Positions 1 to 51,731 of a stretch of DNA of 64,000 nucleotides are shown here, one piece after another. This DNA comes from Ichthyenterobacterium magnum (GTDB lineage: Bacteria; Bacteroidota; Bacteroidia; Flavobacteriales; Flavobacteriaceae). The stretch lies in assembly GCF_003610635.1 (NCBI RefSeq), contig NZ_RAQJ01000002.1:1-64000 (forward strand), read 5' to 3'. The translations under genes were made by a program, and so were the position numbers. Under the pieces are notes generated by a model. It was not told where the DNA came from, did no database searches, and was given only the letters and a program-made list of their open reading frames with translations. Position 1 is the stretch's first letter; each line of letters starts with the position of its first letter.

Positions 1-90
1 GATGGGGCTCACCTCTTACCATTCCGAACAGAGAAGTTAAGCCCATTTGCGCCGATGGTACTGCATTTGTGGGAGAGTAGGTCGTTGCCT
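1..90 (+). rRNA. rrf: 5S ribosomal RNA, 3' part (5' end outside window)
   Basis: The first ~90 bases carry the conserved 5S core (CCATTCCGAACAGAGAAGTT followed by AAGCCC) and the closing GGGAGAGTAGGTCG helix strand. The window begins inside the molecule, so about 20 to 25 bases of the 5' end are missing. The 3' end is placed just before the T-run at 90-95 and may be off by a few bases. This is the end of an rRNA operon transcribed left to right; 16S and 23S would lie upstream of the window. Confidence 0.93.
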
Positions 91-122
91 TTTTTGTGCC
101 GATGCAAATCGACATTTACTGA

Positions 123-151
123 AACCCTTACCATAAATTGGTAAGGGTTTT
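123..151 (+). terminator. Intrinsic terminator of the rRNA operon
   Basis: A perfect stem AAACCCTTACCA / TGGTAAGGGTTT with a short AT loop is followed by a T-rich stretch. It sits about 30 bases past the 5S rRNA and points with it, so it most likely ends the rRNA operon. The facing minus-strand operon stops at 264. Confidence 0.85.
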
Positions 152-263
152 TTGTTTTAATCTTTACATCATATGAACTATAGTAATGGGAGATCTTTTT
201 TTTAGATCTTAAAAAGTTAATAGATAAGAGCGGTTTTATCTTAGGTATAAATACGTTGTATTA

Positions 264-728
264 TTATTGAATCAATACCTTTTTAGTAACTTTTTTATTT
301 TTAGAAACTATTTTTATAAGATATAATCCAGATTGTAAATTATAAACGTTTATTGTTTTCAATTTGGTCTCAATAACTTTGCTTCCTAAAACATTATATA
401 TTTCTATAGAATCAATAGGAATATCGGATTTTATAAATATATATGCTGATGCGGGATTTGGATAAACAATTAGATTATATGTTGAATTTGTGATTGGTGT
501 TAACCCTAAGGTACTAGAATTATCTGAATTAATAAACCCACTTGATACTTGAAGATTACCCATGTTAAATTCTTGAACTATAACTTCTCCAATGGTATAT
601 AATACATGAATATTATCAATTGCAACATTATTTCCGCCACTATCGATACTAAATTTATCAATAGTTTGTGCTTGTGAAGACATGAATGCTCCGAACAAAA
701 AAAGAATGCTTTTTATTATCGTTTTCAT
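264..728 (-). CDS. Small secreted protein, mostly a T9SS sorting domain
   Basis: The 154-residue protein has a signal peptide (1-20, ending SSQA|Q), a short middle of about 60 residues and a C-terminal type A T9SS sorting domain: YPNPAS at 89-94, then the IYNVLGSKV strand at 110-118 and a lysine-rich KKVTKKVLIQ end. The sorting domain directs export through the type IX machinery and usually attachment to the cell surface. The N-terminal part matches no catalytic family I recognise. The start codon overlaps the stop of the upstream head-repeat gene (ATGA, 725-728), so the two are translationally coupled and probably form one unit. Function is unknown beyond secretion; a partner or anchor role for the adjacent fibre protein is inference. 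Confidence 0.85.
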   Translation of the reverse strand: MKTIIKSILFLFGAFMSSQAQTIDKFSIDSGGNNVAIDNIHVLYTIGEVIVQEFNMGNLQVSSGFINSDNSSTLGLTPITNSTYNLIVYPNPASAYIFIKSDIPIDSIEIYNVLGSKVIETKLKTINVYNLQSGLYLIKIVSKNKKVTKKVLIQ

Positions 729-2257
729 TTTTCTAAAGTATTAGTATTTAATGCTTCTAATTTCTTAATTCGTTGATCGAACTCTTTAAATTTTATGAGT
801 TCAGCAGATAAACCTTCAATCTGTTTTTCTTGAGTATTAATTAAAGTTTGTTGCTCTTGCATGGCTTTAATTAAAATAGGTATGAGTTCTGTATAACTTA
901 GACTTAATGTTTGATCTTTATCAATTCCAATTTTTACAATTTCTTCTATTAATGGTTGCACTTCTTGAGCAATTAAGCCAAGAGATTGTTGCGTTTCTTC
1001 TGGATAACGCTTCCAGTTATAACTTACAGGATTTAAATTTAAAATAGTTTGTAATCCATATTGAAGTTCTTTAATATTTGTTTTTAACCGTCTGTCTGAG
1101 TTTTGTGTGAGTGTACCTGCTAATGTTGCATTTCCGTTTCGATAAATTGTAAGTGCATTGCTACGTGCTATATCGCTAGATCCATTGCCAATTTCAAAAA
1201 GTGGATCGGTTGAAACCATGGTGTTAGGCGTACCACCACCAAGATTAAAGTGACCTATAGCAGTTGAGCCTAATGATTCTGCTTTAGTTCCATCACCAAT
1301 TGCAAATGAATAAAACCCAGACGCAGTTGTGGCTTGTCCCATTGAAACGGAATAGCTTCCAGAGGCTAGTGTGTTTCTGCCACTTGTAAATGAATACCAT
1401 CCTTCGGCTATTGTGCCATGACCTGTTGCTGTGGCATAAACACCAGATGCAGAAGTTTGATAACCAATCGCAGTAGCTCCTAAAGCACTTGCATTGTTTA
1501 AATAGCCAATTGCAGTAGTATGATTTTCAGCAGCAGTACTTGAGTTTCCCAAAGCGGTAGAGTAATCGCCTGAAGCAATTGTACCAGCTCCCATTGCTGT
1601 TGATCCGATTCCAGAAGAAGATGTTGCAATACCAATTGCAGTTGAAACTGCTCCAGTTGATGATACGGAATTTCCAATGGCAATTGCTCCAAACCCAGTA
1701 GCACCATTAGTTGTTGATGAATCTTCGGCAAAACTCAAGTCTATTGCGAATTCGCCAATATCGCCAAAATTATTAGGATCGCTACCTATTAATCTCCAAC
1801 CTATGCCTTCACCTTCATCTAATGCTTCTAAACCAGAAGGTTCTGTGCCAGAACCACCCCCAGAATAATTAGCATCGGCAAATTCTTTAGTGATTAGGGC
1901 TTTAGGGTTAGTAATTTCAGAAATATCAAAACTTGGGGCTGTTATGGTTCCGTTTTTTAAGATCGTAAGCGCATTTGATCTATCCAAGAATGTTCCATTT
2001 CCTATTTCAAATAGAGGGTCAGTTTCAACCCAAGAATCTAGAGTACCACCTCCTTCATTACGACGCCCAATTACAGTTGATGCATATGACTCTGCGCTAA
2101 CATTGAAGCCAATTGCGGTAGAATAATCTGCTAATGCACCAAAAACAAAAACCCCATCATTACTAAAACTTAAATCAACAGCTTGACGTCCAATATTACC
2201 ATAAAGATTTGGATTTCTTCCAATAAGCCGCCAGCCTATACCATTGCCTTCATCCAA
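725..2257 (-). CDS. Downstream part of a head-repeat / S74 tail-fibre-like protein (separated by an in-frame stop)
   Basis: The 510-residue frame begins at a TTG and has no signal peptide. It holds two copies of a GIGWRLIG-(S/R)-(D/N)PN unit, then about 12 YadA-head-like repeats of the type STAIG-x(5)-ASG, and from about residue 389 a Peptidase_S74 / endosialidase-chaperone domain (SDRRLKTNIKEL, then LNPVSYNWK and GLIAQEVQPLI). A coiled coil (residues 470-510) ends it. S74 domains trimerise fibre proteins and can cleave themselves off. The frame is the same as that of the upstream gene ending at 2282, and the codons between read STSSGLETLDEG, matching the internal SGLEALDEG repeat. So this is probably the C-terminal half of one protein rather than a gene of its own. 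Whether it is translated separately is unknown. Confidence 0.75.
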   Translation of the reverse strand: MDEGNGIGWRLIGRNPNLYGNIGRQAVDLSFSNDGVFVFGALADYSTAIGFNVSAESYASTVIGRRNEGGGTLDSWVETDPLFEIGNGTFLDRSNALTILKNGTITAPSFDISEITNPKALITKEFADANYSGGGSGTEPSGLEALDEGEGIGWRLIGSDPNNFGDIGEFAIDLSFAEDSSTTNGATGFGAIAIGNSVSSTGAVSTAIGIATSSSGIGSTAMGAGTIASGDYSTALGNSSTAAENHTTAIGYLNNASALGATAIGYQTSASGVYATATGHGTIAEGWYSFTSGRNTLASGSYSVSMGQATTASGFYSFAIGDGTKAESLGSTAIGHFNLGGGTPNTMVSTDPLFEIGNGSSDIARSNALTIYRNGNATLAGTLTQNSDRRLKTNIKELQYGLQTILNLNPVSYNWKRYPEETQQSLGLIAQEVQPLIEEIVKIGIDKDQTLSLSYTELIPILIKAMQEQQTLINTQEKQIEGLSAELIKFKEFDQRIKKLEALNTNTLEK

Positions 2258-2281
2258 AGTTTCGAGACCTGAAGAAGTACT

Positions 2282-2284
2282 TTA
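2282..2284 (-). other. In-frame TAA splitting the fibre gene
   Basis: On the minus strand the frame reads ..LTWADN, TAA, then STSSGLETLDEG.. with no shift. Removing this codon joins 451 and 518 sense codons into a 969-residue frame from 3637 to 725. It is a single nonsense change, a sequencing error, or a true gene border. Confidence 0.8.
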
Positions 2285-3637
2285 ATTATCTGCCCAAGTT
2301 AAAGTACCATTACCATCTGTTTGCAATACTTGATTCGTTGAGCCATCTGCGGTAGGAAACGCAAAACCAGTTAGTGTTGGATTACCTATTTGAAACTCAC
2401 TATTGGTTCTTAAAATATTAATACCAAAATCACCGTAAATAAGTGCACCATTAGCATCATGACTCCTATTTTCTATATAAAGTTTACCGCTACCTGTTTC
2501 TTGCGCACCTGCAAAAGATCCAATAAATACGTTTCCATCTCCTATAATATTATCACGACCAGCATTATTGCCAATGGCAGTATTTGACGTACCAGATACA
2601 TTATTTTCTAGTGTTCTATATCCAATTGCTGTATTATTAGATCCTTCATTGCTGTTAAAAAGCGATTGATAACCGATGGCTGTGTTGAAATCACCAGTAT
2701 TAATATTAAATAGTGCTTTATAACCGCTTGCAAAATTTCGATTTCCATCTGTATTATTAAAAAGAGCCTGATAACCATATGCTGTATTTTCAGACCCTGT
2801 AATATTATTGTATAATGCTTCATTACCAACAGCTGTGTTTTGAATGCCAGAAGTATTACTATAAAGTGATCTATACCCATTTCCTATATTTTTATTTCCA
2901 GTTGTATTATTAAAAAGAGAACTAGTACCAATTGCTGTATTATTAAAACCATCAATGTTATTAAATAGTGCTCCACTTCCAACAGCTACGTTTTCTGATC
3001 CGATATTATTAAAAGAAAGTGCAAAGGCTCCAATACCTGTATTACCAAAACCTAAATTATTAGATAAAGTTTGATAACCTAGAGCACTATTTTGTAGTCC
3101 CGATGTATTATTTAGAAGAGCTTCATACCCAACACCAATATTTTTATTGTCTGCAGCATTATCGTTGTAGCCTGCTCTAATACCTATAAAGACAGAGGAT
3201 CCATTATCTGTACCATCGTTGTCAGATTTCCCATCTGATAGTTCATCTATTTTACTAGCTGCATTTAAGGCATATGGCACTGCTTTAAATTCGGTAGTTC
3301 CCAAATCGGTTAAACCAGCTCCAGAATCCATTTGGACGTTTAAAAAATGAGCATCAGTAGCCCAATCAATTGCATTATAGTTACCGCTAATAATTGTGCC
3401 TTCGCCAATATTAACTATAATAATACCATTAGCTCCACTAGTTGTAGTATGAGATTCTTGGTATACAGAAGTCATTCCAGCGCCTTGAAGAATATTAAAT
3501 TCTACTGTAATTGTTGCATTTGCAAGTACGTTTCCACCAGAATCTTTAATTAAAGCCTTATAGTTTATGCCTTTACTTTGTGCAAAGGATAATGATGTCA
3601 TTAAAATAGTTAGCAGTAAAATTAATTTGGTTTTCAT
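2282..3637 (-). CDS. N-terminal part of head-repeat tail-fibre-like surface protein
   Basis: A frame opens at 3685, but the start is placed at the ATG at 3637 because it is followed at once by a signal peptide (MKTKLILLLTILMTSLSFAQ). About 120 residues of a beta-rich N-terminal domain follow (SKGINYKALIKDSGGNVLAN...AVPYALNA), as seen at the head of many flavobacterial tail-fibre-like proteins. Next come about 12 repeats of roughly 21 residues with the pattern NTAIGYxxLxNNxxGxxN, resembling YadA-type trimeric adhesin heads. The end, NQVLQTDGNGTLTWADN, is normally an internal linker in such proteins. The stop at 2282 therefore looks premature, and the trimerising S74 domain is encoded downstream in the same frame. 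The gene lies 51 bases past the DUF4412-like gene in one operon. Confidence 0.8.
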   Translation of the reverse strand: MKTKLILLLTILMTSLSFAQSKGINYKALIKDSGGNVLANATITVEFNILQGAGMTSVYQESHTTTSGANGIIIVNIGEGTIISGNYNAIDWATDAHFLNVQMDSGAGLTDLGTTEFKAVPYALNAASKIDELSDGKSDNDGTDNGSSVFIGIRAGYNDNAADNKNIGVGYEALLNNTSGLQNSALGYQTLSNNLGFGNTGIGAFALSFNNIGSENVAVGSGALFNNIDGFNNTAIGTSSLFNNTTGNKNIGNGYRSLYSNTSGIQNTAVGNEALYNNITGSENTAYGYQALFNNTDGNRNFASGYKALFNINTGDFNTAIGYQSLFNSNEGSNNTAIGYRTLENNVSGTSNTAIGNNAGRDNIIGDGNVFIGSFAGAQETGSGKLYIENRSHDANGALIYGDFGINILRTNSEFQIGNPTLTGFAFPTADGSTNQVLQTDGNGTLTWADN

Positions 3638-3688
3638 AATAAATGATATATAGATTAATAGCTTTTTTTTAATTTGCTTGTCCAATGA

Positions 3689-4417
3689 TTAAAACCCCAA
3701 ATTTGAGTATTCTTTTGTGTTTATAGTGGTTTTCTTTTTGTTAAGACTTATGGCATGCATAGTAAAACTTTGTTTCTTTTTCTTTTTATGTTTAAAATTC
3801 ATTTCCATAAGCAAAGCTTCTTCTTTTAGTACTTTTAAAAGTGCTGGGTCAAATCCTTTAGGTCCATTTTTATTATTTGCAAATGCCATGAAGGCACTAA
3901 AGTTTACTGGTGCATCTAGAGTAAAATACATGGTGCCAATGTAATTTGCATTTTCTAACTCAATACCGTAACATTCAAAGCCTAAGATGTCTTTAGTTCC
4001 AATTTCTTTATAACCGTAGCCATAATCTTCTGCCATATTATGTTTTTCTTTAGGAAGCTTAGTTATCTGAGCCATGTTTTGGTCTTGAGCATTCATAAAC
4101 ATAATCATAATTTTTGATTTTAAATCCATAACGATTCTCATTTCACCCATTTGTTTAAAGTCTTTTCCCGACATTTCCATTCCTATGTAATCTTTATCTT
4201 CTCCTATGAGGTAATTCATCTCCATAGTTTCATTTTTTGCAGATTTTATTTCGGTTTTAAACTCCCAACTAAACTCATATGTGTTAGGTAATTTTGATGC
4301 GTCTAATTTTTTGGAACCCATCATAGCTTCCATGATTTTTTTCGTTGGATTTTGTGACTTTACTGAAATGCTTATAAACAAGCATAATGTGATTAGAAGA
4401 ATAACTTTAGTTTTCAT
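3689..4417 (-). CDS. Secreted DUF4412-like protein
   Basis: The 242-residue protein has a signal peptide (1-21, ISVKSQ) and a single domain rich in methionine, lysine and acidic residues. The layout (YEFSWEFKTEI, IMIMFMNAQDQ, ILGFECYGIEL, MEMNFKHKKKKK) resembles DUF4412, a periplasmic or outer-membrane-facing family of unknown role. It has no membrane segment beyond the signal peptide and no catalytic motif I can name. It sits 6 bases after the 306-residue secreted protein and 51 bases before the fibre gene, so it belongs to the same minus-strand operon. The family assignment is moderate; secretion is clear. Confidence 0.75.
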   Translation of the reverse strand: MKTKVILLITLCLFISISVKSQNPTKKIMEAMMGSKKLDASKLPNTYEFSWEFKTEIKSAKNETMEMNYLIGEDKDYIGMEMSGKDFKQMGEMRIVMDLKSKIMIMFMNAQDQNMAQITKLPKEKHNMAEDYGYGYKEIGTKDILGFECYGIELENANYIGTMYFTLDAPVNFSAFMAFANNKNGPKGFDPALLKVLKEEALLMEMNFKHKKKKKQSFTMHAISLNKKKTTINTKEYSNLGF

Positions 4418-4423
4418 GATACT

Positions 4424-5344
4424 TTAATTTTTTTGTTTTTTTTTATCTTTCTTATTGTGTTTCCAGGGTTCTAAACCTTTTTCTAAATTGAGTATTTTAC
4501 CCAATGGACCAGGAATCATTGATTGTTCTATAGCATCTGGCAATTTTACACTGCATTCTTGATAAGAGTAAACGTATTTGCCCGAAGTAGGTTCTTGCAT
4601 ATTTGAGTTATGTGACTTATTACCAAATGCCGTGGTAGTTTTTATTTTAAGTATTACTAATCTGCCTTTATCATCAAACTGAATATAGCTTTCAGGATAT
4701 TCGGGATTATTATAGTTAAAACGAGTGCAATCACTAGATACATTACATTTCACTCTTACTGGTGTATAGTTTTCGTTATTTTTAAAGTGAATGGGTTTAT
4801 AAATAAAAGCCAACTCTAGTATCATAAAATTAAGACTAGAATCAATGTCTTCTAATGCTTGAAATGCTTCTAAATAAGGTTCTGAAGGCAAATTGTATGC
4901 TTGAGGAACCATACCAGCAAGCATAAATCCTGATAAGCTTGGCGGTAATAAGGATGCTTTCTCATAATAGTCTTCGTCTTCATTAAAAACATAAAATTTG
5001 CCTTTGTTATCATGATAGATTGGTTTAGACTTATCATTTTGTTCAGTGCGCATTGCAATGACCTCTTTGTCAAAATACATGGTTTGGATAATCATATTTT
5101 TATCATCTATCAATTTTAAGACAACATCTTTATTAAAGAAGTCTTTAGCTGAATTAAGTACTAATTCTTCTCTTTCATAAGATGTTGTTCTGTTTTTTGT
5201 GTTGCCTGTAGTATCATAAGAAACTTCTTTAGTTTCTAGCCCTTTCTCTTTTGCTCTTTTCTTTAATTTTTCTAAGAGTTGCGCTTTAGCAGTTGTACCA
5301 AATAGAAGTACTAAAAATCCTGTTAACATTAATTTTAGTTTCAT
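4424..5344 (-). CDS. Secreted hypothetical protein, first gene of the fibre operon
   Basis: The 306-residue protein has a clean signal peptide (MKLKLMLTGFLVLLFGTTAKAQ), then a basic amphipathic stretch (LLEKLKKRAKEKG) and a long beta-rich domain with two cysteines near CNVSSDC. The tail is very basic (KHNKKDKKKQKN). I do not recognise the family. The related lay-out of the next gene (signal peptide, single domain, lysine-rich end) suggests both are periplasmic or cell-surface accessories of the fibre protein. As the first gene of the operon it follows a 485-base intergenic region that holds a 28-bp dyad element at 5671-5698. Confidence 0.7.
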   Translation of the reverse strand: MKLKLMLTGFLVLLFGTTAKAQLLEKLKKRAKEKGLETKEVSYDTTGNTKNRTTSYEREELVLNSAKDFFNKDVVLKLIDDKNMIIQTMYFDKEVIAMRTEQNDKSKPIYHDNKGKFYVFNEDEDYYEKASLLPPSLSGFMLAGMVPQAYNLPSEPYLEAFQALEDIDSSLNFMILELAFIYKPIHFKNNENYTPVRVKCNVSSDCTRFNYNNPEYPESYIQFDDKGRLVILKIKTTTAFGNKSHNSNMQEPTSGKYVYSYQECSVKLPDAIEQSMIPGPLGKILNLEKGLEPWKHNKKDKKKQKN

Positions 5345-5774
5345 AATTTTTTCATCTTTAAAGTTTTAAATAAAAAGGGAAACAACTCCTTATGATTTTC
5401 ATTATTTCCCTTTCTCTCACATGATTAATAGCGTCTTCATATTTTTTTTTATAAAGCTTAACAGATTTTATTGCTTTACTCTTAAGTGTAACTTAGCTCA
5501 TAATGACCCTCTTTAAATAATCAAAACATAAATAATTTTTTTGAGGGCTTATTTTCAGTATTACCATCTGCTTTTGTAGTGCTTGGTAATTAAATTAATT
5601 AGGGATAGATTGTGTGCACTAGTTTGGTATTACAAAACTATTATAGAATCCTGATTAAGGATATTACTATTGTAACAAAGTATATAAGATATGTTACACT
5701 GTATTGTATCTGTGTGTTGTATTGTTAGTTATGTTTGTGTGAATCTGTGATTTTGCATAAATGTTGTATTATAA
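5345..5774. other. Intergenic region upstream of the fibre operon
   Basis: About 430 bases lie between the start of the minus-strand operon at 5344 and the terminator of the neighbouring operon. I see no credible gene on either strand. The region holds an AAAGGGAAA / TTTCCCTTT inverted repeat near 5377-5413 and the 28-bp dyad at 5671-5698. It is presumably the promoter and leader region of the fibre operon. Confidence 0.6.
5671..5698. promoter_or_regulatory. 28-bp dyad element, copy 1 (candidate operator)
   Basis: Perfect 7-bp arms TGTAACA and TGTTACA are separated by 14 AT-rich bases. A second copy at 9668-9695 matches it at 25 of 28 positions. On the minus strand the element contains TATACTTTG, close to the -7 box TAnnTTTG but with one extra base, so it could overlap a promoter. 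It lies about 330 bases upstream of the first gene of the fibre operon. Confidence 0.55.
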
Positions 5775-5775
5775 A

Positions 5776-5804
5776 AAAAAGGAAACATAAATTGTTTCCT
5801 TTTT
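5776..5804 (-). terminator. Intrinsic terminator of the SUMF1/NGDGF operon
   Basis: A perfect 12-bp stem (AAAAAGGAAACA / TGTTTCCTTTTT) has a 5-base loop TAAAT. It lies 26 bases past the stop of the 264-residue T9SS protein in the minus direction and is followed by a T-run on that strand. The symmetrical A and T tails could also make it work in the other direction. Confidence 0.8.
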
Positions 5805-5829
5805 CAACTAATACTATTTGAGTTTTTAT

Positions 5830-6624
5830 TTATTCTTTAATGATTTTTTTTACGGTTATTTTATCATCTATTTTTACTTTAACTAAATAAGCTCCAGAAC
5901 TTAAGCTCTTAACATCTATATGTTTTTTTGAACTACTCATAACCAATTTCCCTAATAAGTCGTAGATTTCTACATTGTCAACAGTTTTAGTAGATTGTAT
6001 CGTAATATAATCTGATGTTGGGTTAGGATAGATAGAGAATTCAATTAGTTCTGAATCATTAACGTCTAATGTACTAAAATTAAAAGAAGTCATACCAGAT
6101 AAAGCAGAAGTATTAGAATCTACCACATTTGGAAACATTGCCATGCCATCATCTACCATATCTGCCGCCATAAAACTCTTTAAAGCTGTTACTGTTGTTG
6201 CTAATGTAGAATCATTTGCTAAAATACTTATAGACCCAGTTGTAGGCGATCCATTAACTAAAACAGTTACCATAGCAGAATTAGTCCCACTAGAAGGAGC
6301 TGCCAATGATATTGGGCTTCCTAAAACCTCAGTTATTAAATAACCATCGATAGTTGGTTGAGCAACATTAGTTCCGTCGAAAAAAGTATCATTAGCTCCA
6401 TTTCCTAAAGATGATGTTATACTAGCAGTAATACCATCTGTTAAAATAATAGTAAACCCATAACTTTGAACCGATGTTGCAAAGTTTGAAGGACTTGCAT
6501 TTGGCACAGCAGAAATAGTAAAGCTATAACCACCATTATGTGATAATGTATATGTATATCCATCTTGTGCATTAAGGCTAAGACTTAAAAAGAGGATTAT
6601 AATAAGAGATATAATTTTTTTCAT
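5830..6624 (-). CDS. T9SS-sorted secreted protein
   Basis: The 264-residue protein has a signal peptide (1-19, LSLNA|Q), a beta-rich middle of about 170 residues rich in Ser, Thr and Gly, and a type A T9SS sorting domain with YPNPTSDYITI at 199-209, VEIYDLLGKLV and a KITVKKIIKE end. I recognise no catalytic motif in the middle part. It is the last gene of a three-gene minus-strand operon, 20 bases after the NGDGF-repeat protein, and is followed by a strong terminator. It is likely surface-attached or released. Its relation to the neighbouring SUMF1-fold protein is by position only. Confidence 0.85.
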   Translation of the reverse strand: MKKIISLIIILFLSLSLNAQDGYTYTLSHNGGYSFTISAVPNASPSNFATSVQSYGFTIILTDGITASITSSLGNGANDTFFDGTNVAQPTIDGYLITEVLGSPISLAAPSSGTNSAMVTVLVNGSPTTGSISILANDSTLATTVTALKSFMAADMVDDGMAMFPNVVDSNTSALSGMTSFNFSTLDVNDSELIEFSIYPNPTSDYITIQSTKTVDNVEIYDLLGKLVMSSSKKHIDVKSLSSGAYLVKVKIDDKITVKKIIKE

Positions 6625-6644
6625 GATATATAATTTTTTTTAAA

Positions 6645-8048
6645 TTAATTTTCTGGTAATTGCTCAGTTATTTTATAAGTACTCAAATTCAAGAAATTAC
6701 CTGGATGCAAGAGTACATTTTGTAAAATAAATGGTGTGTCTGGATTTAAGCCAGAATATTGTGTTGTACCATTAAGATCTAAATCATAAGTATAATAACC
6801 AGAGATAGCATGCGTAGGGAAATTTAAAAGATTGCTAGGATCATTAAGTATAAATGATAAAATACTTGGTGAATCTGGTGTGTCTCCTGCATATTGTACT
6901 ACACCATCATTATTAGCATCACCTGCCCATAGCGCTTTGGTTATCTTATTTAAAAATACTTGTGCGTTAGTACCAAAGGTTAAAGTGCTAGCGTTTGTAA
7001 AGTCTATTGAACTTGCTACTACACTTAAATTTATTGGATTACCAGTCATAACTCCTAAATGGTTTCGATGTTTTATAACAACATAATAGCTATTAGTAGT
7101 TCCTTGTAAAATTACATCTGATGTTCCATCAAGGTCTACTACATCACCATCTCGTTGTATTAATGCAGATGAACTATCTACCACAAGAGTGTTGTCTACA
7201 TTGCTTCGTATTTCTACCCATATCCAATCTACAATATCATCTGAAGTACTGCCAAGGCCACTGGTACCTCCATCATTTAAAACAGAAGTGTTAATAACAG
7301 CTAAATCTTGATAAGGACTAGTTGTTGGAAGGTCGTTGTTTGTTCTTAAAGCATCATTCATATATGCAGGGTTTGTTGGGTTTATTAATGGTCCTTGTAA
7401 AAATGCTTTTATATTCAACCTTAAATCTACTATTTGATTAGGGTCTAAGAATGTGCTTTCTTGATTTACAGAAAACCCATCACCATTTCCACCAGCGAAC
7501 ATAAACGTAATCATTTCACCTGTTAGAATGTTTTTGTTTGATTGTTCTAGAGCAAACCCATCACCATTACCACCAGCAAACATGAATGTAATCATCTCAC
7601 CAGTTAAAATGTTTTTGTTTGATTCTTCTAGAGCAAACCCATCACCATTGCCGCCATCATATAATACAGCCAATGATATATTTTCTAGTGTTGTAGCTGC
7701 TAAAATTCTATTAGAGAACCCATCACCATTTCCGCCTTCATATAATATGGTTAGTGATATATTTTCTAAAGTAGTAGCGACTAATGCTTCATTATCGAAG
7801 CCATCACCATTTCCACCTTCATATAGTACAGCTAAAGAAATATTATCTAAGGTTGTTGCTGAGATAAGTTTTCTATCGAAACCATCACCATTATTACCTT
7901 CATATAGAATAGTTAATGAAATGTTTTCGAGTGTGGTTGCAGTTTTTCTATTGTCAGCATAGCCATCGCCATTACTTCCGTTAAATTGTGCAAACAAACT
8001 GTTACTACAAAAGAGTAAAAAAGATATTATTATAAATCTTTTTTTCAT
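6645..8048 (-). CDS. Secreted protein with seven 27-residue NGDGF repeats and a dockerin-like tail
   Basis: The signal peptide (1-20, SNSLFA|Q) is followed by seven tandem units of exactly 27 residues (22-210), each with (G/N)NGDG(F/Y) near its start and most with ATTLENISL(T/A) later. Residues 215-360 form a beta-rich domain with LRLNIKAFLQGP and VWVEIR-type strands. The C-terminus has two calcium-loop-like segments, GDANNDGVVQYAGD and YDLDLNGTTQYSGL, resembling the D-x-N-x-D-G loops of dockerin-type repeats. Similar architectures in flavobacteria are often called hemagglutinin-like, but I see no direct evidence for that. It lacks a standard YPNP sorting domain, so its export route is uncertain. 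It lies 10 bases after the SUMF1-fold gene. Confidence 0.8.
   Translation of the reverse strand: MKKRFIIISFLLFCSNSLFAQFNGSNGDGYADNRKTATTLENISLTILYEGNNGDGFDRKLISATTLDNISLAVLYEGGNGDGFDNEALVATTLENISLTILYEGGNGDGFSNRILAATTLENISLAVLYDGGNGDGFALEESNKNILTGEMITFMFAGGNGDGFALEQSNKNILTGEMITFMFAGGNGDGFSVNQESTFLDPNQIVDLRLNIKAFLQGPLINPTNPAYMNDALRTNNDLPTTSPYQDLAVINTSVLNDGGTSGLGSTSDDIVDWIWVEIRSNVDNTLVVDSSSALIQRDGDVVDLDGTSDVILQGTTNSYYVVIKHRNHLGVMTGNPINLSVVASSIDFTNASTLTFGTNAQVFLNKITKALWAGDANNDGVVQYAGDTPDSPSILSFILNDPSNLLNFPTHAISGYYTYDLDLNGTTQYSGLNPDTPFILQNVLLHPGNFLNLSTYKITEQLPEN
7419..7985 (-). repeat. Seven in-frame tandem repeats of 81 bp
   Basis: Seven units of 27 codons encode the NGDGF repeats. Units 1 to 4 share ATTLENISL. 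Units 5 and 6 share SNKNILTGEMITFM and are almost identical in protein. Unit 7 is degenerate after the NGDGF core. Because the unit is a multiple of three, gain or loss of copies keeps the frame. Confidence 0.9.
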
Positions 8049-8058
8049 TGTTCAGAGA

Positions 8059-9528
8059 TTAAGGTGCTGTTCTAGCTGCTCTAAACCCTAAGCGATTGTT
8101 CCCACTAGAAATAATAGAAGCTCCATCGTACCGATCTGAAACTCTAATAAAGTCAGAACCATTTAACCAGCTTCCGCCTCTAAAACTATAGCCATCTCCT
8201 GTTGTATTATTTGGCCAATTAGACACGGTTCCATTTCCTGTAGTAGAACTTATAATTCCATTTCCATGAAGCCCAGTAAAATTTCGTCCTTGCAATGTTC
8301 CTACGGTTACACAACGTTCATATAAGTTTCCAGAAAGTTCCATGATACCATAATAACTACCACCAGTTTCTTCACGGTTATTGTTTACAGCACTAGCTGC
8401 AAAAATTCCGTTTCTTACAGGTCCGTCGATTGACCCATTTGTTAAACTATATATTGCATTTCCAGTATTAGTTTCTGGGTTAGTAATTCTCTCACTTGAA
8501 AACCCTGAATTTACTAGTGTATAATCGTTAGAAGCTATATTTGCACTTCCCCAAGCAAATTCACCAGGTTTTGGTATTATAGGACCTCTACAGGCTTTTT
8601 CATATTCTAATTCACTTAAAGGACGTAATCCTGTCCAATCCATGTATGCATTCATATCTGCAATATTTAAATAACTAATTGCTCTATCTGGTGCTGTGGT
8701 AGTAGCACTTGCGGTTCCACCAGTCCAAGCAATTGTATTTCGACTTACAACAGCATCACTATTTTTGTGATTTGCATCTGTAACATCTCTGTTCGTTTTT
8801 TGATTCTCAGTCAAGCTATTAAAGAAGCCTAACCATTGCGATTCTGTAACTTCATACTTCATAGCATAAAAATCATTAAACCCTTTAGGGTATGAAGCAC
8901 TAAGTACACCTGTTTGATCACCTCCATTTGCATTGGTAGCTGTATAGTATAAGTTTCCACTTGTATTAGCGATGGTTAATGCTGCCTCAGATGTGATTCT
9001 AAATGATGAAGATGTAGAAAAACCACCAGAGTGAAATTTATTGGCTTCATCTCCAGTAGTGCCGCCTACATAAAAAGAACCTTCAGGTACATATACCATT
9101 TCTATAGCAAATACTTGAATGTCGATAATATCGTCAGTATCTGTAGAACCAAAATTCCAACGAATTTGCATATTTTGGTAGTTTACATTACCGCTTCCGT
9201 CTGAATCTCTGTAGACAAATGCTCCAATACCATCAGAAGTAACATCTAATGTTGCTCCTGGAGAGGCTACTGAGTTGGCTTGACTTATAATACCATGTGT
9301 CCAGGTTCCATTGTTTACTCGATATTTAATAAAAACCCAAGCTGCATCCCAATTGGATGGTCCTGAACTTATTCTCCATGAATTATCCCAAGCTAAATCA
9401 AATTCAACATGTACCCAATTAGATACTTCATTTAAATTTTCTAATGAGATGTTGTTTACCCTAATATTATTGCTATGTATTGTATAGCTAAAAAGGATAA
9501 TAAATAAAAGTGTAAATTTTGTTTTCAT
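8059..9528 (-). CDS. Secreted SUMF1 / formylglycine-generating-enzyme-fold protein, likely non-catalytic
   Basis: The 489-residue protein has a signal peptide (about 1-19), an N-terminal beta domain of about 120 residues (VHVEFDLAWDNSWRI, WDAAWVFIKYRV) and then an FGE-sulfatase (SUMF1) fold: MVYVPEGSFYVGG, FYAMKYEVTESQWLGF, RPLSELEYEKACRG, MELSGNLYERCV and RGGSWLNGSDFIRVSDR. In true FGE the segment after GGS carries the two copper-binding cysteines. Here those positions are Asn and Ile, so sulfatase activation is unlikely and a binding or structural role is more probable. It is the first gene of a three-gene operon and follows the second copy of the 28-bp dyad. The fold call is firm; the function is inferred. 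Confidence 0.85.
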   Translation of the reverse strand: MKTKFTLLFIILFSYTIHSNNIRVNNISLENLNEVSNWVHVEFDLAWDNSWRISSGPSNWDAAWVFIKYRVNNGTWTHGIISQANSVASPGATLDVTSDGIGAFVYRDSDGSGNVNYQNMQIRWNFGSTDTDDIIDIQVFAIEMVYVPEGSFYVGGTTGDEANKFHSGGFSTSSSFRITSEAALTIANTSGNLYYTATNANGGDQTGVLSASYPKGFNDFYAMKYEVTESQWLGFFNSLTENQKTNRDVTDANHKNSDAVVSRNTIAWTGGTASATTTAPDRAISYLNIADMNAYMDWTGLRPLSELEYEKACRGPIIPKPGEFAWGSANIASNDYTLVNSGFSSERITNPETNTGNAIYSLTNGSIDGPVRNGIFAASAVNNNREETGGSYYGIMELSGNLYERCVTVGTLQGRNFTGLHGNGIISSTTGNGTVSNWPNNTTGDGYSFRGGSWLNGSDFIRVSDRYDGASIISSGNNRLGFRAARTAP

Positions 9529-9988
9529 AATATTGATTTTATGTTAATAGATATGTATTAGTGTTCAACAATTAAAAAAGTAAACATTGTTTAAATTTTC
9601 AATATTCATATGGTAAAAAAATTACTCTACGAAATTATATTAGCTAATGAAAACTTGATGCATGATATGTAACAAACTATATAACATATGTAACAATAGT
9701 CTATTTGTTTAATAGTGTGACGCTTTTAATAGTAGCTGATTATTAATGTTTTATAGCTTTAGTGTAAAGTTAAAAAATGCTATATTTAAAAGTTTACTAA
9801 ATGTATGAATGGTCAAAATTTGCACTTTTTTGTATACAAAAAATGTATTGGAGGAATTTTTAATTAACAGAAAAGGTTTGTTTACCGTAAAATATTTTGT
9901 TTACTGAAAGAAAATAGATAAAACTATTTAACTTTTTTGAAAGCAGATAAGTATAGTTTAATAAATAATGAAGAGAAATAAATTTTTA
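9529..9988. other. Intergenic region upstream of the SUMF1-fold operon
   Basis: About 460 very AT-rich bases lie between the operon start at 9528 and the small membrane-protein gene ending at 9989. I find no credible gene. The region holds the second 28-bp dyad (9668-9695) and, near 9877-9907, two copies of TTTGTTTAC. It is presumably the operon's promoter and leader. Confidence 0.6.
9668..9695. promoter_or_regulatory. 28-bp dyad element, copy 2 (candidate operator)
   Basis: This copy matches the 5671-5698 element at 25 of 28 bases, with arms TGTAACA and TGTAACA (one base off a perfect dyad). It lies 140 bases upstream of the SUMF1-fold gene, in the same orientation relative to the minus-strand operon as copy 1. 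The two copies suggest common control of the two surface-protein operons. Confidence 0.55.
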
Positions 9989-48721: not shown

Positions 48722-48752
48722 AACTCGTTAAGTAATTTAGCGAGTTTTTTTT
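48722..48752 (+). terminator. Intrinsic terminator of fabI
   Basis: AACTCGTTAA pairs with TTAGCGAGTT (one G-T pair), and an eight-T run follows. The FG-GAP pseudogene fragment begins directly after the T-run. A decayed copy of this sequence occurs at about 49901-49952. Confidence 0.85.
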
Positions 48753-49856
48753 GATTATAATAATGATGGTTTTCAGGACATTTACCTTACAAACGATATA
48801 GCAAATGCAAATATTCTGTACCATAATAATGGAGATGGTACTTTTTCTAATACAGCACAACAAGCTAATGCAGATAGTATTATTGATGCCATGTCGACCA
48901 CTATTGGCGATTTTAATAATGACGGTTGGTTTGATATTTATGTAACAAATACACCTAGCGGAAATGTACTTTTAAAGAATACACAAAACGGAACATTTAC
49001 AGATATAGCAGATGGTTCTGGTACAGCTTTTACCAGTGTTGGTTGGGGCGCTGCATTTTTAGATGCCGAAAATGATATGAACTTAGATTTATATGTAAGT
49101 GGAGAATTAAATATCCAAGGTCTTAGTCAGTTACTAGCAGCATTTTATGAGCAAGTATCTAATGAAACCTTTTTAATGTCTAGTGATAATGGGTTTTTAA
49201 ATGATGCCTATAAAAGTTATTCAAACGCAATTGGAGATACAGATAATGATGGCTATCCAGAAATTGTTGTAAATAATTCTAATAATGAGTCCCTTTCTCT
49301 TTGGAAAAATAATTCTAATACTACCAATAATTGACTTAAGATAAGATTAGAAGGTACGGTGAGTAATAAAGATTGTATAGGTTCACTAATAGAAGTTTCT
49401 GTTAATAACAGCAGTCAGCATAGATACACACTTTGTGGAGAAGGATATATAGCGCAAAATTCCTTAACAGAGTTTTTTGGATTGGCACAAAACACAGAAG
49501 TCGATTATGTTAAAGTTACTTGGTTAAGTGGGATTGAAGATTATTTTTATAATATACAAGCTAATCAAGTATTTAATATAATAGAGGGTAATGGTACATT
49601 ATCAATAAATAGTTTAAATAAGCAGTCAACTTCAGTTTTTCCAAATCCAGTGAAAGATAAACTGATTTTAAAGTCAAAAAAACAAATTACAAAAGTTCAA
49701 ATAATTAGCCAGTTAGGTGAGATAGTTTTCTCAATGTCTAGTATTAATGATGAAACTGTAGAAATTTATGATTTAAATAAACATGAATCAGGAATAAACT
49801 TCTTAAAAGTTTTTTTTGATACAGACACTTATATACATAAGTTTATTAAGGATTAA
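48753..49856 (+). pseudogene. Truncated and interrupted FG-GAP / ASPIC-UnbV T9SS protein gene
   Basis: The fragment opens at DYNNDGFQDIYLTND and runs in one frame to a T9SS domain (FPNPVKDKLIL, VQIISQLGEI), aligning with the intact neighbour (50001-51731) from its residue 206 on. So about 205 N-terminal residues, including the signal peptide, are missing. A TGA at 49332-49334 interrupts NNSNTTNN / LKIRLEGTVSNKD. The neighbour has NNYLAIKLEG there, and the family commonly has Trp at that place, so TGG to TGA is likely. Without a start, a signal or an open frame, no exported product is expected. It retains FG-GAP calcium loops (DFNNDGWFDIY) and an ASPIC/UnbV domain (VKVTWLSG). Confidence 0.88.
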
Positions 49857-50000: not shown

Positions 50001-51731
50001 ATGAAACGCGTCTTATTTATTATTTTATTTTTTGTTGCATTATTTGCTAATTCACAAATATTTTTCGAAGATAAGTCTTCAAATTTAGGTTTAATTGATG
50101 GTGGAGGAATTACAGATTTAGGAAATGGAATAAGCTTTGTTGATTTTGATAATGACGGATGGGATGATATAACAATAGCATCTGGGAATAATGAGCCGCT
50201 TAGGTTCTATAAAAATAATCAAGGAACTTTTGTTGAAGTAAATTTACTTGTGCCATCAATCAACTACCAAACTAGAGCAACTAATTGGGTAGATATTGAT
50301 AATGATGGAGATAAAGATTTATACGTTACTAGTGATACAAATGGGAACAGGTTATATGAAAATACTGGAAATTTAACGTTTATTGATATTACACAAAACT
50401 CTGGTTTGCCTCAAAGCAATATACTTACATATGGAACTTCTTGGGGAGATATCAATAATGATGGCTATTTAGATATATATATATCTAATAGAACATTTAA
50501 TACAGATATAATTAATCATTTATTTAAAAACGATGGGGATGGAACATTTACAGATGTAACCATATCTTCAGGGTTAAATACGGATCACGAGTTAACTTTC
50601 TGTTCTGGTTTTTTTGATTTTAATAATGATGGTTGGCAAGATTTATACATAGCTAATGATAAAACCGATTCTAATTTACTCTATAAGAATAATGGTGATG
50701 GAACTTTTTCAGATGTAAGTCTATCATCTGGAACTGATATTGTAATTGACGCTATGTCTGTTACTGTTGATGATTTTAATAATGACGGTTTCTTTGATAT
50801 TTATATCACTAATACACCACATAGCGAAACTGCACCAAATGGGGGAAATGTTTTTTTGAGAAATAACGGAGATGAAACCTTTACAAATATTGCAATAGCA
50901 TCAGGAACTTTTTTTGATAGCTTTGCTTGGGGAGCAGTTTTTTTTGATGCCGACAATGATATGGATTTAGATTTATATGTTAGTGGGATGCTAGATGGGT
51001 CGGTTGCTGGATTCTTGCCAGCTGCATTTTATCAAAATGAAGGAAATGAGACTTTTATTCAACCCACAAATATTGGATTTGTAGGCGATACAAAAAGTAG
51101 TTTTTCAAATGCAATTGGAGACGTCAATAATGACGGCAAAACAGATGTCGTTGTTTTCAATAATAATGATACACCATTTGTTTGGATGAATCAAACCACA
51201 ACATCAAATAATTATTTGGCAATTAAACTTGAAGGCGTTAGTAGTAATGAAGATGGTATTGGTTCTGTTATTGAAGTTGGTGTTAATGGAGGGAAGCAGT
51301 ATAGATATACAATGTGTGGAGAAGGTTATTTGTCCCAAAATTCTTCAAAAGAAATATTTGGGCTAGGTAATAATACAATAGTAGACTATGTTAAGGTAAC
51401 ATGGTTAAGTGGTACTGTAGATGTGTTATATAATATATCTGCAAATCAAGTATTAAATATTGTAGAAGGATCACATTTACTTTCTAACTCAGAAGATGAT
51501 TTATCTATTGTAACAATTTTTCCAAACCCAGTTAAAGAATCTTTATTATTTAAATCTCTTAATTTAATTGATAGGATTTATATTTATAATATGTTAGGCC
51601 AAGAGTTAATAAGAGTAAATAATGATAAAAATAATTACCTTCTTAGTTTATTAGATTTACAAACCGGAACTTATATAGCAAAAGTTATTGTTAATAATAA
51701 AACTAAAATAATTAGATTTATTAAAGAGTAA
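50001..51731 (+). CDS. FG-GAP / VCBS repeat protein with ASPIC/UnbV and T9SS domains
   Basis: The 576-residue protein has a signal peptide (1-18, FANSQ), about seven FG-GAP/VCBS blades with calcium loops of the type DFDNDGWDD, DIDNDGDKD, DINNDGYLD, DFNNDGWQD, DFNNDGFFD, DADNDMDLD and DVNNDGKTD, then an ASPIC/UnbV domain (GSVIEVGVNGGKQYRYTMCG, VDYVKVTWLSG; in part) and a T9SS sorting domain (FPNPVKESLLF, IYIYNMLGQEL). This architecture resembles CRTAC1-like secreted proteins. FG-GAP blades form a beta-propeller that binds ligands or surfaces. It is the intact paralogue of the fragment just upstream. Confidence 0.92.
   Translation: MKRVLFIILFFVALFANSQIFFEDKSSNLGLIDGGGITDLGNGISFVDFDNDGWDDITIASGNNEPLRFYKNNQGTFVEVNLLVPSINYQTRATNWVDIDNDGDKDLYVTSDTNGNRLYENTGNLTFIDITQNSGLPQSNILTYGTSWGDINNDGYLDIYISNRTFNTDIINHLFKNDGDGTFTDVTISSGLNTDHELTFCSGFFDFNNDGWQDLYIANDKTDSNLLYKNNGDGTFSDVSLSSGTDIVIDAMSVTVDDFNNDGFFDIYITNTPHSETAPNGGNVFLRNNGDETFTNIAIASGTFFDSFAWGAVFFDADNDMDLDLYVSGMLDGSVAGFLPAAFYQNEGNETFIQPTNIGFVGDTKSSFSNAIGDVNNDGKTDVVVFNNNDTPFVWMNQTTTSNNYLAIKLEGVSSNEDGIGSVIEVGVNGGKQYRYTMCGEGYLSQNSSKEIFGLGNNTIVDYVKVTWLSGTVDVLYNISANQVLNIVEGSHLLSNSEDDLSIVTIFPNPVKESLLFKSLNLIDRIYIYNMLGQELIRVNNDKNNYLLSLLDLQTGTYIAKVIVNNKTKIIRFIKE

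Follow-up and report, generated by a model that had tools for sequence, protein, structure and literature searches.

The first 64,000 nucleotides of contig NZ_RAQJ01000002.1 from Ichthyenterobacterium magnum (hereafter the window) hold, at the very start of the contig, two consecutive reading frames that appear to be the halves of a single gene for a long fibre protein, together with a small partner gene downstream. The first frame begins at an ATG at 3637 on the minus strand and is ended after 451 residues by a TAA at 2284-2282. Immediately after this stop, 518 stop-free codons follow in the same frame up to a TGA at 727-725, and the ATG of the partner gene overlaps this last stop by 4 nt. 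The features of the locus are the following:

2282-3637, minus strand: first half of the fibre gene, 451 residues, with signal peptide, N domain, head repeats and linker, ending in TAA (translation; match to NCBIfam NF053851, Bdello_MAT_N)
3581-3637, minus strand: Sec signal peptide, MKTKLILLLTILMTSLSFA/Q (read by eye)
3251-3580, minus strand: N domain of about 110 residues, predicted beta-sandwich (alignment of 61 sequences and AlphaFold model)
2450-3202, minus strand: first head-repeat block, limits approximate (PHROGs virion and tail spike matches; matches to relatives)
2285-2464, minus strand: linker, LIYGDF...QVLQTDGNGTLTWADN (pattern, and continuation of other linkers in frame)
2282-2284, minus strand: in-frame TAA (sequence)
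725-2281, minus strand: second half, 518 codons, then TGA (sequence and base shuffles)
2246-2272, minus strand: bridge motif SGLETLDEG, opening GLE/GWR module 1 (sequence)
1811-1837, minus strand: internal copy SGLEALDEG, opening GLE/GWR module 2 (DNA 71% alike over 35 nt)
1502-1576, minus strand: best of four YadA_head stretches (PF05658, 2.6e-19)
935-1099, minus strand: S74 chaperone/peptidase domain, with SDRRLK (SDxxxK) at 1099-1082 (PF13884, 63.2 bits)
264-728, minus strand: downstream protein of 154 residues, with a D domain (about residues 19-70) and a Por_Secre_tail (PF18962, 3e-13)

A preliminary description of this DNA had given the coordinates of both halves, the stop, the shared frame and the sum of 451 + 518 = 969 residues, and all of them were found again. 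The same holds for the bridge motif and its internal match, for the S74 domain inside the second half, and for the start of the second half, which has no signal peptide that could be seen by eye and whose sole early start among ATG, GTG and TTG is the TTG at 2257; the candidates that follow are TTG codons at 1987 and 1738 and then the first ATG, at 1594 (codon 230).

An open frame as long as that of the second half is far beyond chance, the longest one-frame open stretch in 1000 base shuffles being 132 codons. The shared frame of the two halves, taken alone, is weak evidence for one gene, and the window holds nine pairs of neighbouring frames of at least 120 codons that share a frame. That the halves are chance neighbours of this kind was nevertheless rejected, because in seven of the nine pairs the second frame has an ATG inside its first 27 codons, whereas the second half of the fibre gene has none for 229 codons. 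The G+C content by codon position is similar in both halves (0.428/0.428/0.155 in the first and 0.465/0.488/0.181 in the second).

The ninth of these pairs, with its stop at 49332, is another disrupted gene. It lies at 48744-49856 on the plus strand and is a remnant of a surface-protein gene that lacks its 5' part, has an in-frame TGA at that position and ends in a T9SS tail. It looks like a member of the FG-GAP/ASPIC kind, the scan having covered its tail, and the missing 5' part is present, as read by eye, in a whole tandem paralog next to it (50001-51731). This remnant suggests that redundant copies are genuinely decaying in the genome, although it does not prove this for the fibre gene.

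The first half is matched by NF053851 with an E value of 6.5e-11 and 42.3 bits, and its first 132 residues alone reach 55.3 bits, against a curated cut-off of 60; a Pfam scan of this half at E 0.1 gave no match. The same NCBIfam model recognised 60 of the 61 aligned N domains, that of I. magnum included, at E<=0.01 (best 6.4e-15). The AlphaFold model of the N domain has a pLDDT of 85-97, in blocks of ten, over residues 21-110. With this model as query, the best Foldseek match has an E value of 6.9e-3, none being at or below 0.001, and the best VIA-align match has a Z of 7.2 with an rmsd of 3.8 over 93 residues, a score at which many unrelated beta-sandwich domains are tied. These two structure comparisons support only a common beta-sandwich arrangement. 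The sequence profile of the domain found seven PDB chains with E values of 0.24 to 0.99, whose names point to antibodies or cytokines. In the second half, the Pfam scan (E<=0.1) found YadA_head, in four stretches, and S74 only, so that no type Vc YadA-like membrane anchor was detected there, and the Pfam scan found no T9SS tail on the fibre. The S74 domain of the interrupted gene scores 63.2 bits, compared with 59.7 and 57.5 bits for the other two S74 copies in the genome.

For a comparison with relatives, all frames of at least 60 codons in the fetched loci were scanned, after removal of contained copies, with one profile for the N domain and another for the S74 region. The N domain stands in the same frame in 78 of the 132 distinct S74 frames. 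The other 54 comprise nine that are cut at the start of their locus and 45 that are not; a crude leader pattern is passed by 36 of these 45 (one of them, in locus L080, probably by chance), many of which have other N-termini when read by eye. Conversely, the N domain occurs without S74 in 35 distinct frames, among them that of I. magnum, several of which hold other tips and some of which lie at locus ends; an N-domain frame without S74 is by itself not abnormal. A split was found in three of the 81 genes that hold both the N domain and S74. Besides I. magnum, these are two of the 45, L080 (Formosa maritima) and L108 (a MAG of Algicola), where the N-domain frame is directly upstream of the S74 frame in another phase and which look frameshifted.

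The linker ahead of the stop is a common module. By pattern, 20 distinct linkers were found in the loci, 18 of which continue in frame for at least 75 codons, eight of them up to the end of the locus. The two that do not run on are that of I. magnum and that of L153, which is itself broken: it has a TAG within the linker, and the text upstream looks like a frame break. Judged from these sequences, a linker such as that in front of the stop does not form a natural C-terminus. Of the 71 frames in which the GLE..GWR motif was detected, two are spurious, and only in the I. magnum gene does a stop lie four codons ahead of the motif. In L140, from a MAG of Chitinophagaceae, the linker continues in frame into SGLEAIDEGNGIGWRIKGR, the counterpart of the I. 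magnum text past the stop, and a frame of 850 residues in L084 is open from the last part of a linker to GLE. No relative was seen with exactly this succession of modules between N domain and S74: L140 reaches the end of its contig without an S74, and the frame in L084 has another tip. A search of 397 Flavobacteriaceae genomes with the junction, its stop read as X, gave matches in 76, the own genome included, where a match to any part of the query was counted and not only one to the whole junction.

According to these comparisons, it is well supported that the two halves are one gene. It would encode a MAT-like fibre that begins with a signal peptide and the N domain, continues through head repeats, linker and YadA-type heads, and ends in the S74 chaperone. 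The preliminary description had read the locus as a single gene in which a nonsense mutation truncates the protein before its folding domain, or else as a gene with switched expression. The architecture of relatives, with both domains in one frame in the 78 cases mentioned above, bears out the former part, while nothing was found for the latter.

We consider it probable that a single in-frame nonsense mutation has arisen at the border of two modules of this gene of about 970 codons, and most likely the split is simply a gene copy that was lost recently and in an ordinary way. The event is taken to be recent because no other lesion was seen across the roughly 970 codons and because S74 scores as well as in the two intact paralogs. 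Translation would then end at 2282, and the product of 451 residues would be exported without the S74 domain, would not be guided into a mature trimer and would be lost. The remaining 518 codons would not be produced as a secreted protein, and the partner gene, by its overlap of 4 nt with the fibre stop, may also be less translated.

An absence of further lesions fits a young mutation and a sequencing error alike, and a base-call, consensus or assembly error at the TAA, in a gene that is in fact whole, keeps an appreciable though minor share of the probability. It would explain a sole lesion in 970 codons with S74 and YadA heads intact, at the start of a contig (C2), where assemblies are weaker. 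However, lone substitutions are a rarer kind of consensus error than indels, which speaks weakly against it, and so does the second disrupted surface-protein gene of the window, also without its 5' part, since it suggests real decay of redundant genes. A programmed read-through or a reversible switch, yielding a short and a long form, would account for two halves that are otherwise intact, for a stop placed at a module border and for a short form that still holds the N domain, but it is very unlikely. TAA is the usual stop, ending 36 of the 45 long frames of the window, 13 of them as the TAAA found at the fibre stop; the RNA 3' of the stop folds like its shuffles (z 0.39), and no relative in the sets examined has a stop at the same place. 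A suppressor tRNA was rejected, since 33 of the 34 listed tRNA genes, from 150 scored out of 307 candidates, have no stop-reading anticodon, the exception (C7:4457) not having been read. A switch driven by repeats was likewise discarded: 15 inverted pairs occur in 1-9600, and the four that straddle the stop have short, imperfect arms (20-27 nt, 70-80% complementary) at least 3.4 kb apart. No simple-sequence tract was seen by eye at the stop.

The locus might also make two polypeptides, with a short form that works without S74, as NS74 MAT proteins do, and a second half that starts at TTG 2257. Proteins with the N domain and other tips are indeed common in the loci (the 35 N-only frames, some of them cut by locus ends). 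Still, a linker closes the first half, and linkers are the tip in no other unbroken case seen; the second half lacks a signal peptide by eye and any ATG until codon 230, so that the probability of this arrangement is slighter still. Slightest of all is that of a module swap between fibre genes that carried the stop in with the junction. Such a swap would suit a mosaic family and a stop between modules, but no donor was seen in the three other N-domain genes of the genome: two of them, on contig C4, resemble the linker only at its beginning (LIYGEF/LIYGDF) and lack the TDG part, and the third, on C3, shows no linker by eye.

A recent nonsense mutation thus remains the preferred reading of the fibre gene, which as a broken copy is ordinary, and the lead worth following is the partner gene, since genes of this type recur next to MAT-like fibre genes in Flavobacteriaceae. 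Only for the sorting tail is the model of its protein a confident one; the pLDDT is below 50 over residues 1-82, with 11 sequences in the alignment. In the fetched loci, 28 of the 32 distinct D-domain frames follow a fibre frame within 400 nt, two precede one and two have none detected, in a set that is biased because nearly all of the loci were fetched for the fibre. A search with the partner protein itself matched 366 of the 397 genomes, mostly via the sorting tail. The best-ranked 30 loci from this query, some in genomes used before, include 25 with a D-domain frame, and in 22 of these, the own locus included, a fibre frame lies at most about 500 nt upstream. In the other three, L177 has a sub-threshold fibre score only, L198 has the fibre downstream and L202 has none.

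A further sample was drawn from the MAT_N search, consisting of 20 of the 25 top-ranked genomes, picked by hand with one place each, five being left out, the own one among them. A frame with a D domain or a T9SS tail, the latter by a home-made profile of 11 sequences, was directly beside the N-domain frame in 12 of these 20 genomes and within one gene in two more, and six had none so placed. Among 14 neighbour frames listed, three do not encode partners and another is truncated ahead of the motif; '(I/V)G(E/Q)' was seen by eye in nine of the remaining ten, L285 being the exception, and four of the 14 passed the inclusion threshold of the D profile. For comparison, 59 sorting tails occur in the 3.0 Mb of the own genome, four of them in frames of at most 200 residues.

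Other arrangements were observed as well. Longer D-domain frames, of about 300-330 residues, lie beside fibre frames in L192, L194, L195, L197 and L200. At 5830-9528 of the window, on the minus strand, an FGE-sulfatase-like protein, a protein of 81-nt repeats (GGNGDGF) and a T9SS-tailed protein are encoded in a row, and L201 holds a GGAGDGF frame followed by another exported-looking frame.

It is tentatively proposed, as a possibility that we rate below even, that fibre and partner form a two-gene system of the Flavobacteriaceae, in which the partner with its short '(I/V)G(E/Q)' domain, delivered to the surface by the T9SS, would bind the conserved N domain and hold the fibre on the cell, and in which the stop would also uncouple partner translation. 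The neighbourhood offers, in the partner, a concrete candidate for the means by which MAT-like fibres are retained on the surface in this family. The locus also serves as a warning that such fibre genes may get annotated as two hypothetical proteins. In open PMC text, no matching paper was found that links S74 or tail fibre proteins with Flavobacteria, Bacteroidetes or T9SS, a result that does not make the pair of fibre and partner an unpublished one.

Among the known systems, phage tail fibres and spikes with S74 (PF13884) share this domain and the head repeats with the I. magnum fibre, which has tail fibre matches in PHROGs and matches the long tail fiber distal subunit in PDB chain 6f45_A (3.1e-6). 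In contrast to them, it has a signal peptide and a MAT-like N domain in its first half. A phage origin was rejected, the phage matches being only partial and below 60% identity: no more than 43% of the second half is covered by any of the 20 records listed out of 362, and in none of the 362 is 80% covered in one place. Trimeric autotransporters such as YadA and BpaC have the YadA_head repeats in common with the fibre (PDB 7o23, BpaC, 1.2e-14; NCBIfam Ata, 8.5e-6 and 23.3 bits against a cut-off of 2500), whereas the C-terminus of the I. magnum fibre is S74.

The closest resemblance is to the MAT fibres of Bdellovibrio bacteriovorus, which are described (PMC10769870) as mosaic proteins of about 1000 residues with a signal peptide, directly after it a conserved beta-rich N domain of about 130 residues, and an S74 end. 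The I. magnum gene has a signal peptide, an N domain that may correspond to this one, a long fibre and a C-terminal S74 with SDxxxK, the latter, a trait of the MAT S74 group, being present in its second frame, and is likewise mosaic and of about 1000 residues. It differs in an N domain that scores under the NCBIfam cut-off, in its YadA-type heads, in its Flavobacteriaceae host, in the adjoining gene for a small T9SS-sorted protein and in the interruption by a stop. In the MAT_N search, 125 of the 397 Flavobacteriaceae genomes gave a match and one exceeded the cut-off, scores being lower in that search than in a direct scan (39.5 instead of 55.3 bits for I. magnum). Both MAT ends are found in one polypeptide in 78 related frames but, with the TAA as sequenced, not in I. 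magnum, and because its N domain and S74 are not in one polypeptide the gene is called MAT-like, a broken relative. According to the Discussion of the Bdellovibrio study (PMC10769870), the MAT N domain presumably attaches to some element of the surface, which has yet to be identified. By analogy, the partner described here is a candidate for such an N-domain-binding surface element in Flavobacteriaceae, and it makes this question testable.
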